Shown here piece after piece: positions 17,974 through 20,535 of a stretch of 64,000 bases of DNA. The notes beneath the pieces were generated by a model that did no database searches, was not told where the DNA came from, and saw only the letters and a list, made by a program, of their open reading frames with translations. Source of the stretch: Salipiger bermudensis HTCC2601 (GTDB lineage: Bacteria > Pseudomonadota > Alphaproteobacteria > Rhodobacterales > Rhodobacteraceae); contig NZ_DS022276.1 in the NCBI RefSeq assembly GCF_000153725.1, forward strand, positions 1,967,495-2,031,494. Direction: 5' to 3'. The position numbers and the translations under genes are program-made. The first letter of the stretch is position 1, and every line of letters begins with the position of its first letter.

Positions 17974-18039
17974 GCGGAGCGGGGACGCTCGGCTATGTTC
18001 AATTTCGCCCGCGCGTCGAAGCTGCCACCGTGCCGTACC

Positions 18040-19692
18040 CTACCAGAGATCCCAGCGTCCGAAGCCGATCACCCAGATCGCGATCAGGGCATTGGCCACG
18101 GCATGGGCGATGATGGCATCGATCAGGCGGCCCCGCAGCCGTGTCATCAGGCTGAACAGGATGCCGGACAGGATCCCGGCCAACCATGCGCCGTGCAGCA
18201 TCCCGAAGGCCGTGGCGCTTCCCAGGACCGCGAAAGGTGTCAGGCGATCCTGTGCAACGGCCAGCCAGTCCGCCGAGATCAGCCTCCGTTGCAGATACCC
18301 TCGGAAGGCCAGTTCCTCGATGATCGGCACGATGATCACGCTGCCGATGACACGCAGGGCGATCCACAGCGCAAGAAGCACTGGCGGCAGTGCCGTAAGT
18401 GTCGCCGGGGCGGCCGCTTCGGCCGGCTCCGCAACTGGCGCAAGCGCGAGCCAGAACAGGAAGACGGCCGTCCCGCAAAGCCAAGGCGCGGCAGCCGCCA
18501 GAGTGATCGGCGCGGGCACCCGGCCGAGGCGTCCGATCGCATCCGCCAGCGGCGCGCGGTAGAGCACGAGTACCGCGCCGACAGCTGCGACGCGCAGGCC
18601 ATAGGCGAGCTCGCCCAGATGGCCGAAGGCGGCGCTGACCAGCGAGAGTGCAAGCCACACGAGGAACGGCAGGAGGTAGGCCGTGACCTCGAGACTGTCA
18701 TCGCGAAGCGACGGTGCCACGGGGAGATGGCGGGTCATCCAGGGCAGCCGCCGCAGGGTCGCAATGATGCCGAGGCTGATGCCGCAGAAGAAGACCCAGC
18801 CTGCCATCGAATGGAACGCGCCCTTCGCGAGTTGCGGGTCGATCCGGTCTCCGACCCAGAGCAGGATGGCGATGCGGGCGGCATTGGCCACGAAGGAGAT
18901 GGCAATCGCGGCGGGAAACACCAGCAGGGCTTGGGGGAAACGGTGCTCCTCGCGGAAGCGGTAGAGGTAGCCGGCGAGCAGCACGGTGATCATCGCCATG
19001 CCCTCGATGCCCGAGCAGGTGGCGCCGATATGCGCGCCGAAATCGCCAAGCTGGATGCCGGGCAGTGCCGGTTCGACGAGGACCGTGAAACCGGCCGCTT
19101 CCAGCATCGCAGTGACGAGGCGCAACGTCGGATCCGACAGCGCTCTCCAATAGGGAAGGATCTGGACGGCGGCGACGCCGGTGGCGGTGCCGAGCACTGC
19201 GGCGAGCGCCACGTGTGGACCGGCGGCGCGCAGGACAGCCTTCGTTGAGGCACCGAGCACCGCGATCACGAGGCTTGTCGGTACGCTCACCGCGACGCCC
19301 AGCCACAAGACAAGCAATGGCCAGCCGAGGTCCGCCGCCACGTCGGGCCGGGCAAGGATCAGGATCGTCAGGCCGGCAAACGCCGCATAGCTGGCGAAAT
19401 GGACAGAGAGGCTGCCGCCCGTGACCGGGCGCGTGCCGGCAAGCGCGGCGCGCATGCGGTCAGCGATGCTGCCGTCCCAAAGCACCGCGAAGGCGCCCAG
19501 TGCTGCAATCATGGCTCCGGCAAATCCGCTGCCAGCCCAGAGGAGGCCCTGCCACGAACTGGGCAGGGCCTCGACTGCGTCGATGTCGTGGCGCCAAGCC
19601 AAGACAAGGAACAGGCAGAGGTATTCGGCGATCAGAACCGCCGGAACGGTTGCAACACGAACGGTGGTTTGTCCGTGAGTTGCGACAGTCAT
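18040..19692 (-). CDS. Exosortase E fused to CPBP-family intramembrane protease (VPEID-CTERM system)
   Basis: A 550-residue polytopic membrane protein with two enzymatic halves. The N-terminal half carries the exosortase triad in family context: Cys226 in ATCSGIEGMAMI, Arg273 in NAARIAIL and His294 in GAFHSMAGW. Exosortases cleave and transfer proteins bearing a C-terminal PEP-CTERM-like signal. The C-terminal half is a CPBP (Abi/Rce1-like) protease: EELAFR with E459/E460/R464, then FGMLH with H500, and a final H530 in IIAHAVANA. This arrangement matches the family named 'exosortase E/protease, VPEID-CTERM system'. It lies 13 bases downstream of a gene whose product ends in a VPEIG-CTERM signal, so the two probably form an operon of enzyme and substrate. 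Confidence 0.9.
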   Translation of the reverse strand: MTVATHGQTTVRVATVPAVLIAEYLCLFLVLAWRHDIDAVEALPSSWQGLLWAGSGFAGAMIAALGAFAVLWDGSIADRMRAALAGTRPVTGGSLSVHFASYAAFAGLTILILARPDVAADLGWPLLVLWLGVAVSVPTSLVIAVLGASTKAVLRAAGPHVALAAVLGTATGVAAVQILPYWRALSDPTLRLVTAMLEAAGFTVLVEPALPGIQLGDFGAHIGATCSGIEGMAMITVLLAGYLYRFREEHRFPQALLVFPAAIAISFVANAARIAILLWVGDRIDPQLAKGAFHSMAGWVFFCGISLGIIATLRRLPWMTRHLPVAPSLRDDSLEVTAYLLPFLVWLALSLVSAAFGHLGELAYGLRVAAVGAVLVLYRAPLADAIGRLGRVPAPITLAAAAPWLCGTAVFLFWLALAPVAEPAEAAAPATLTALPPVLLALWIALRVIGSVIIVPIIEELAFRGYLQRRLISADWLAVAQDRLTPFAVLGSATAFGMLHGAWLAGILSGILFSLMTRLRGRLIDAIIAHAVANALIAIWVIGFGRWDLW

Positions 19693-19705
19693 GACAAGCG
19701 TGGGG

Positions 19706-19951
19706 TCAGGCCGAACGGCGCTTCCGTGCTGTCATCAGGACGAGGGCTCCAAGCACCAGTGCCACAGCGGCGGCGGCACCTTCTGCCCCGATCTCGGGGA
19801 CCGTGGCATTGGGGCAGAAGCTTGCGTTGCCCGGGTTGCAGGCGCTCGCGTTGGGAATGCCACCCTTGTCTGCCATAGCAAGCTGCGGGGTGGTGAAGAC
19901 GCAGACAAAAGCGATGGCTGCGGCGTTCAGAATAGTCTTTGTGTAAGTCAT
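19706..19951 (-). CDS. VPEID-CTERM-type sorted small protein (VPEIG variant)
   Basis: An 81-residue secreted protein, likely substrate of the adjacent exosortase. It has an N-terminal signal peptide (MTYTKTILNAAAIAFVCVF...AMA), a very short mature part of about 25 residues with two cysteines (ACNPGNASFCPNAT), then the sorting signal VPEIG, a hydrophobic Ala/Val/Leu helix and the basic tail TARKRRSA. This tripartite end is the hallmark of exosortase targets; the fifth residue is Gly rather than the Asp that names the family. The ATG at 19951 is chosen because the signal peptide begins there, although its ribosome binding site is weak and a GTG five codons upstream is possible. What the tiny mature domain does is unknown. 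Confidence 0.8.
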   Translation of the reverse strand: MTYTKTILNAAAIAFVCVFTTPQLAMADKGGIPNASACNPGNASFCPNATVPEIGAEGAAAAVALVLGALVLMTARKRRSA

Positions 19952-20113
19952 GCCTAAAGTTCTCACTACTGAGGAAACAAGTACCGGGGCTGAATGAAGT
20001 TGCCCGTCACGATTATGCCTTATTTCGTGAAGCGTCTCGCAGATAACTCGCTCGAGCATGGGGCAATTGGCCGAATTCCGCTCTTATCGAGGCAGGTTTA
20101 CACGGAATGCGTG

Positions 20114-20133
20114 TTTCCAAAAATTATTGGAAA
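20114..20133. promoter_or_regulatory. Perfect inverted repeat in AT-rich gap upstream of the VPEIG-CTERM gene
   Basis: TTTCCAA and TTGGAAA flank the spacer AAATTA. The element is about 160 bases upstream of the VPEIG gene start, in the only AT-rich stretch of this neighbourhood. It could be an operator or a terminator; function is inferred from symmetry only. The rest of 19952-20230 shows no gene. Confidence 0.4.
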
Positions 20134-20229
20134 GTCGCTAGTTGTCCCGAACTGAGACTCTTTGAATTCGCTTGCGAATCGGCCGATCGCCCTCCTGTGT
20201 CTGCAGAGGCGGAGCCGGCGCCTAGGGCT

Positions 20230-20440
20230 CGGGTTTGTCGGCGTCTCCGCAGGGCTGTCATGATGATAATGGCTTCGGGAACCAGAGCCATCCCGGCAGT
20301 CCGGCAATCGGCGGGCTCGCGGGCAGTCTGCTGCAGAACCGCTCGAGCCGGGGCATGTTGCGGTGGGCTGGCGCAAGGAGTCGCGCCCCGCAAGGAACAG
20401 CGCGAGATCATGGCCCCGGTCGGGCTTTCATGGAGCGTCC
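20230..20440 (-). pseudogene. Probable decayed second VPEIx-CTERM substrate gene
   Basis: Read on the minus strand, one frame gives ATCPGSSGSAADCP at about 20360-20320, resembling the intact neighbour's ACNPGNASFCP. A different frame then gives TAGMALVPEAIIIMTALRRRR ending near 20240, which aligns with the neighbour's hydrophobic helix and basic tail (VALVLGALVLMTARKRR). At the nucleotide level the segment over MTA is recognisably similar. The intervening VPEI pentapeptide is not intact and at least one frameshift separates the halves; a stop interrupts the would-be signal peptide. I read this as the remnant of a paralogous substrate gene in the same orientation. The resemblance is short, so this is tentative. 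Confidence 0.35.
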
Positions 20441-20535
20441 AGCTCCGCTGCTCATTACAAAGCAGACGTCCCGTAGCATGGGAACAGAGGTTTTGGGGAA
20501 GAGCATTAGCTCGTACGCTTTGTGAAAGCGTAAGT

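Follow-up and report, generated by a model that had tools for sequence, protein, structure and literature searches.

XrtE, the exosortase E/protease fusion of Salipiger bermudensis HTCC2601, and the small VPEIG-CTERM protein encoded beside it belong to a gene pair that recurs in four phyla. On balance, we favor a dedicated enzyme/tag pair in which the exosortase half of XrtE would cut the tag at VPEI|G and the CPBP half would cut the tag helix.

A fused enzyme and its tagged neighbor

The window analyzed here, 64,000 nucleotides in all, carries both genes on the minus strand, with the 81-residue substrate gene (19706..19951) lying 13 bases upstream of xrtE (18040..19692, 550 residues). The original prediction of a two-gene system was right about both open reading frames and their adjacency, and the combination of enzyme and tagged protein recurs in relatives. 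The family assignment was likewise upheld, as the 550-residue protein scores 201.5 bits against TIGR04162 (cut-off 150) and covers positions 56-515 of the 516 in that profile, both halves included. The exosortase half (residues 47-314, 18751..19554, minus strand) passes Exosortase_EpsH of Pfam, PF09721 (57.3, cut-off 25.7), and the CPBP/Rce1-like half (residues 343-550, 18043..18666, minus strand) passes Rce1-like PF02517 (53.6, cut-off 22.4) and TIGR03008 (115.1 bits, cut-off 81.05).

The residues proposed for the two active sites are all in place, with C226 (codon 19015-19017), R273 (18874-18876) and H294 (18811-18813) in the first half, and EELAFR (459-464), FGMLH (496-500) and H530 in the second (E459-E460 at 18313-18318, H500 at 18193-18195 and H530 at 18103-18105; all minus strand). 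Both sites are also conserved in relatives. The Cys-Arg-His triad is unchanged in all 46 aligned relatives and throughout a 77-row alignment, while E459, E460, H500, H530 and N534 are identical in 45 of the 46, the exception being L091, where the enzyme gene is broken across two frames in a fragmented assembly. In the 77-row alignment E459, E460 and H500 are invariant, and H530 and N534 are conserved in at least 90% of rows. This alignment (A2) joins the window enzyme with 76 of 80 possible rows, four near-duplicates being omitted, and does not include L050 and L051; a smaller alignment (A1) used 41 of the 46 enzymes. An AlphaFold2 model of the enzyme built from 77 sequences has a mean pLDDT of 90.0 and a pTM of 0.81. 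A Foldseek search against the PDB found nothing at E up to 0.001, SagB-SpdC being the best relevant entry with E 2.1, and the two halves were therefore assigned by sequence; a sequence profile also gave no PDB match at E up to 1.

The small protein had been described as exported and as ending in VPEIG, a helix and a basic tail, and so it reads: MTYT...QLAMA|DKGG..., a segment with two cysteines, VPEIG, the helix and RKRRSA. The signal-peptide-like start (predicted residues 1-27, cleavage at AMA|D, 19871..19951) was read from the sequence by eye, and is followed by an exported segment of 23 residues with Cys38 and Cys46 (19802..19870) and by the tag of motif, hydrophobic helix and basic tail (19709..19801), all on the minus strand. 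The substrate fails TIGR04161 (7.1 bits, cut-off 33), and when TIGR04161 was run on 46 tags alone, 28 matched at E up to 0.001, the window's tag not among them.

Distribution of the pair

Of 20 same-genus genomes (S. bermudensis included), 5 score above the TIGR04162 cut-off, as do 42 of 394 at the level of the family. The best 80 of at least 189 relatives are fusions of complete or almost complete length, and are spread over Pseudomonadota, Planctomycetota, Myxococcota and Acidobacteriota. We collected 130 loci, 119 of them distinct after removal of near-identical enzymes, and scanned them for [VAITLS]PE[IVLFM]x followed by a helix and a basic tail, a match being called near if it lay within 1.5 kb of the enzyme gene. 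Absence of the gene pair from related genomes had been named beforehand as refuting; the pair is kept in 98 of the 119 loci, across four phyla. Near sequence (347 kb) holds 110 motif matches against 9 in the sequence farther out (1071 kb), all nine in loci that also hold near matches, and the 64-kb window holds a single match, strongly arguing that the pairing of tag and enzyme is not due to chance. The near matches lie upstream on the same strand in 62 cases, downstream on the opposite strand in 42 and in other arrangements in 6.

No tag protein was found within 1.5 kb in 21 of the 119 loci, and a looser motif pattern gave nothing convincing there. In two of these (L093 and L146) the enzyme abuts the end of the available sequence, and in L060 the partner sits elsewhere in the genome.

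The family and its name are already in NCBIfam and xrtE is in RefSeq plasmid records, 12 of 16 plasmid matches being so named. The VPEIG gene of Salipiger sp. CCB-MM3 (NZ_CP014598.1, L172:7654-7923) is missing from the incomplete gene table of its record, and small VPEIG-type genes may be widely missed in annotation. One locus (L070:10743-10835 and upstream) has two VPEID motifs in one open frame, as if substrates had fused or a frame had been overrun. A contig binned as Klebsiella pneumoniae (L128) encodes an XrtE that groups with those of L115 and L120, from a bacterium and an alphaproteobacterial MAG, and its species assignment is probably wrong.

Number of substrates

Sorting enzymes mostly handle a range of cargo proteins, and exosortases such as XrtA have many substrates each. 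XrtE could be an ordinary PEP-CTERM-type exosortase serving many surface proteins genome-wide. The whole-proteome scan for tags suggested with the original prediction was run as a six-frame genome search with A3, a profile of 46 of the 119 tags, with E below 1e-5 taken as a strong match. It returned a single strong match in the S. bermudensis genome, at the substrate gene (E 8.4e-11, the window's tag being itself a row of A3), and a Pfam search found one exosortase. Among 13 same-genus genomes (own included), tags occur in G000, G005, G010 and G011, the four with XrtE over cut-off (the one tag of G011 appears at both ends of a contig), and the nine without XrtE over cut-off gave no strong match to A3. 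All 30 further XrtE genomes have a strong match, exactly one in 28 of them, four in G070 and six in G183. The only strong match in G077 lies on the enzyme's contig but about 2.5 Mb away, showing that the number one is kept without linkage. These counts cover 34 of the 46 genomes with XrtE over cut-off, and weaker A3 matches (E 0.003-0.1) in several genomes cover only part of the model. Usually, one enzyme goes with one substrate.

Besides the precedent of XrtA, the six tagged proteins of G183 and the exopolysaccharide-type genes that adjoin xrtE on two plasmids would fit many-substrate sorting. However, no exopolysaccharide genes were seen by eye among the window's neighbors, its genome has one strong tag match and one exosortase, and 28 of the 30 other genomes have exactly one tag. 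We therefore reject this reading for the window genome, unless it holds tags invisible to the A3 model, and regard it as extremely unlikely.

A few loci carry several tagged genes. In L090 (from G183), five tagged open reading frames of 203-539 residues adjoin xrtE and a sixth lies elsewhere, a many-substrate version of the system. L099 and L103 (Methylococcaceae) and L110 (Rhodocyclaceae) have three or four APEID/APEIS/VPEID-tagged proteins of 216-378 residues by xrtE. In L062, three consecutive small genes carry the tag, and none of them seems to encode a signal peptide.

Conservation of the tag

Conservation is higher in the tag than in the enzyme, and almost absent from the exported segment. 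In pairs of loci with enzyme identity of 0.45-0.55, tags average 0.74 and exported segments 0.19, and at 0.55-0.65 the averages are 0.87 and 0.26. Enzyme and tag identity correlate (Mantel r 0.80 over 97 pairs, a value reached in none of 2000 permutations), which in part reflects shared inheritance; the frame-broken L091 was omitted from this comparison and from the enzyme tree. The CTERM codons of 165 pairs show 1549 synonymous against 712 nonsynonymous changes.

Position 5 of the tag is D in 71 of the 110 near matches, S in 29, G in 6, and H, N, A and T in one each. The Gly that was called notable for replacing the family Asp is thus not exceptional. Of 97 tags, 83 have an acidic residue ahead of the basic tail and 61 have W[ED], the window's clade having neither. 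Cysteine occurs within the tag in 1 of 119 and is absent from the window's. Enzyme residues that might track D or non-D at position 5 could be compared in only five independent pairs on supported branches, too few for significance.

Such conservation could also mean that the small protein is a subunit or regulator of the enzyme, with the helix as its functional part and the exported end as filler. A tag conserved above the enzyme when the remainder is not, the preponderance of synonymous codon changes and the almost constant single copy per genome would all agree with such a role, as would the proteins of L062, L066, L139, L143 and L155, which by eye appear to lack a signal peptide and to have little beyond the tag. 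This is very unlikely, as the loci with three to six tagged proteins, some with large domains (L090, L099, L103 and L110), resemble ordinary sorting, and the layout of motif, helix and basic residues is that of known sorting tags. The cysteines described below also speak against the exported part being mere filler.

The exported segment

By a crude rule, the exported segment of 102 small substrates has a median length of 23 residues (20 among those with a recognized signal peptide), and it is at most 12 residues long in 23 of them. Large cargo of 135-360 residues is found in 17 of the 119 substrates, from 5 loci. The release of a short peptide, as originally proposed, is hence doubtful as the general output of the system.

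The two cysteines noted in the window's protein, in contrast, are part of a family-wide pattern. Counted under a crude signal-peptide rule, cysteines number zero in 68 of the small segments, two in 33 and one in a single case, so that 101 of 102 have none or two. In 10,000 reshuffles of the 67 cysteines over 2502 residues, there were never fewer than 14 singletons (mean 31), against the one observed. The raw 25 residues before the motif have no cysteine in 67 cases, one in 6 and two in 29, and the large substrates have none in 12, one in 1, two in 3 and three in 1. Mapped on the enzyme tree, the cysteine state switches 15 times among 92 rows, so that the pairing is not a single inherited accident. 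The three clade mates of the window have two cysteines each, like the window itself. These pairs fit a disulfide.

In a reading close to the original proposal, the system would mature a short exported peptide, freed at both ends and closed by a disulfide, that acts as a signal, a bacteriocin-like or a surface peptide, the CPBP half trimming the N-terminal signal anchor. CPBP enzymes take their name from bacteriocin processing, in line with this proposal. The cysteines are paired, with about 14 of the 15 state changes necessarily between zero and two given that one row only has one, and the segment varies between genomes much more than the tag, as peptide signals do. Yet 68 of the 102 small segments have no cysteine, 23 have 12 residues or fewer, a few loci have cargo of 135-360 residues, and among the 119 loci no exporter or receptor gene is a conserved neighbor of the pair. 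We consider such peptide maturation rather unlikely.

Orientation and proposed mechanism

To orient the enzyme, segment borders were set by hand from the helices of the model and hydropathy, the helix 179-199 being taken as periplasmic. From the N to the C terminus, the mean net charge of the inter-helix segments over 77 sequences runs +,-,+,-,+,-,+,-,+,-,+,-,+,+,+,-, an alternation that follows the positive-inside rule in 15 of 16 segments and is broken by 498-503 around H500 (+0.26). The most negative segment precedes C226 and another negative one contains H294, so that the exosortase site is predicted to be periplasmic. E459/E460 immediately precede a segment of +2.19, and H530/N534 come soon after one of +1.56, which would place the CPBP site near the cytoplasmic leaflet. 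As modeled, these loop charges would favor the leftover helix over the VPEI site as the target of the second protease. Around the CPBP core, five MrtX-like proteins show this charge pattern too when compared by eye (none of 6 genomes had a match over the MrtX cut-off), and MrtX is reported to cut a tag whose motif is periplasmic (PMC11980579). The charges, then, do not fix where a CPBP enzyme cuts.

In the mechanism that we favor, the small protein would, after export, span the membrane once, with VPEIG in the periplasm and RKRR in the cytoplasm. The exosortase half, with C226, R273 and H294 predicted at the periplasmic face, would cut VPEI|G through a cysteine acyl-enzyme, and the short two-cysteine peptide would be passed to water or to an envelope acceptor. 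The CPBP half (E459/E460/H500/H530), predicted to lie near the cytoplasmic leaflet, would cut the tag helix, most likely as the stump of the first cut. The acceptor to which exosortases attach their products is, to our knowledge, not settled. Transpeptidation is put forward only as a suggestion in PMC11980579.

A more speculative extension, which we find distinctly unlikely, would make XrtE a two-site maturation machine and not a surface-protein sorter, producing for each strain one rapidly changing peptide, looped by a disulfide and either secreted or kept in the envelope. Selection would keep the tag while the peptide diverged as in strain-specific signals, and the substrate helix would be cut at both ends by one site per membrane face.

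A divergent branch and an empty site

The window enzyme forms a clade (support 100) with L050, from a plasmid of Salipiger sp. CCB-MM3, L051 and L092 (Alloyangia pacifica), and is only 38-45% identical even to these clade members. All four tags have G or H at position 5 and no acidic residue before the basic tail. The enzyme tree splits into 35 and 83 rows at support 100, with the window in the 35 and the 83 being mostly Rhodobacterales. The window belongs to a deep four-member Salipiger/Alloyangia branch, whose placement outside the 83-row clade is not firm. An origin of this branch outside Rhodobacterales is not claimed, as the AU test does not reject its joining the 83 (p 0.416). The plasmid copy of A. 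pacifica YSBP01 (L047) falls in the other clade, so that the genus Alloyangia holds two lineages.

Seven same-genus loci were compared with the window. Two of them, in the close relatives G019 and G007, are empty sites, where the flanking genes on both sides are 87-94% identical and 189 and 182 other bases, respectively, replace the 2556 bases of the pair-bearing segment (17976..20531); in the other five, similarity to the window is confined to the phosphatase gene or the sequence to its left, which makes them uninformative about the site. The GC content of the segment is 0.646, against 0.70 and 0.69 on its flanks. Edges of a mobile element were sought around the unit, with no flanking direct repeat and only short chance-like repeats found. 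About 470 bases upstream of the substrate gene (20060-20531), within the segment absent from these relatives, have a lower GC of 0.597 and carry no assigned gene.

An adhesin-like companion in other loci

The only neighbor family present in more than 11 of the 119 loci is a large adhesin-like protein (455-1728 residues as called), which adjoins the tag gene in 23 loci of a single enzyme clade (for example L101:1881-5126, L082:5783-8683 and L159:1859-5176). It has SdrD_B repeats in 4 of 4 proteins scanned, mostly a DCLC-like tail, and sometimes a thioester domain (over the cut-off in L101, under it in L159). The gene lies upstream on the same strand in 22 loci and downstream on the opposite strand in L084. 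Adhesin, tag and xrtE look like a three-gene module. As a functional clue for the window's clade this companion was set aside, with no match in the window genome and a match in 1 of 20 genomes (G010).

Significance and comparison with known systems

A two-gene unit with one tiny natural substrate comes close to a minimal exosortase system, which could be transferred to a laboratory host for direct weighing of its product. XrtE is also where one could first ask why a sorting enzyme is fused to another, unrelated membrane protease. The paired cysteines and the conservation of tag over cargo are specific patterns that experiments could explain or refute. In the literature searched, which leaves most subscription journals outside, we found no experimental paper on the XrtE/VPEID-CTERM family, and none joining XrtE with exosortase or naming VPEID-CTERM; passages of PMC3048395 and PMC5244752 mention the exosortase EpsH. 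As far as that literature goes, the one-to-one count, the paired cysteines, the tag-over-cargo conservation, the wider tag alphabet in four phyla, the divergent branch and the empty site are new.

The window's pair shares with the exosortase E/protease and VPEID-CTERM families (TIGR04162/TIGR04161) the fused two-domain enzyme and the adjoining small tagged protein. It differs in being a divergent branch, with G or H in the tag, no acidic residue before the basic tail and a substrate under the TIGR04161 cut-off. A parallel in number is MrtJ/JDVT-CTERM, described in PMC11980579 as a two-gene unit of one CPBP sorting enzyme and one target. Like this system and MrtX/MYXO-CTERM, as presented there, XrtE combines one sorting enzyme, one target and a CPBP protease. 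However, their tags have an invariant cysteine, in contrast to those of XrtE, and the CPBP domain of XrtE is fused to an exosortase. The C-terminal half of XrtE also resembles the CAAX prenyl protease-related proteins of TIGR03008, whose cut-off it exceeds, although these are encoded by a separate gene; on a Nitratidesulfovibrio plasmid, one such stand-alone gene is found 8 kb away from a PEP-CTERM gene. With the archaeosortase/exosortase superfamily (ArtA, XrtA), XrtE has in common the Cys-Arg-His triad and the tripartite C-terminal tag, and it is set apart from these enzymes by its extra protease domain and by the single substrate in most genomes searched.
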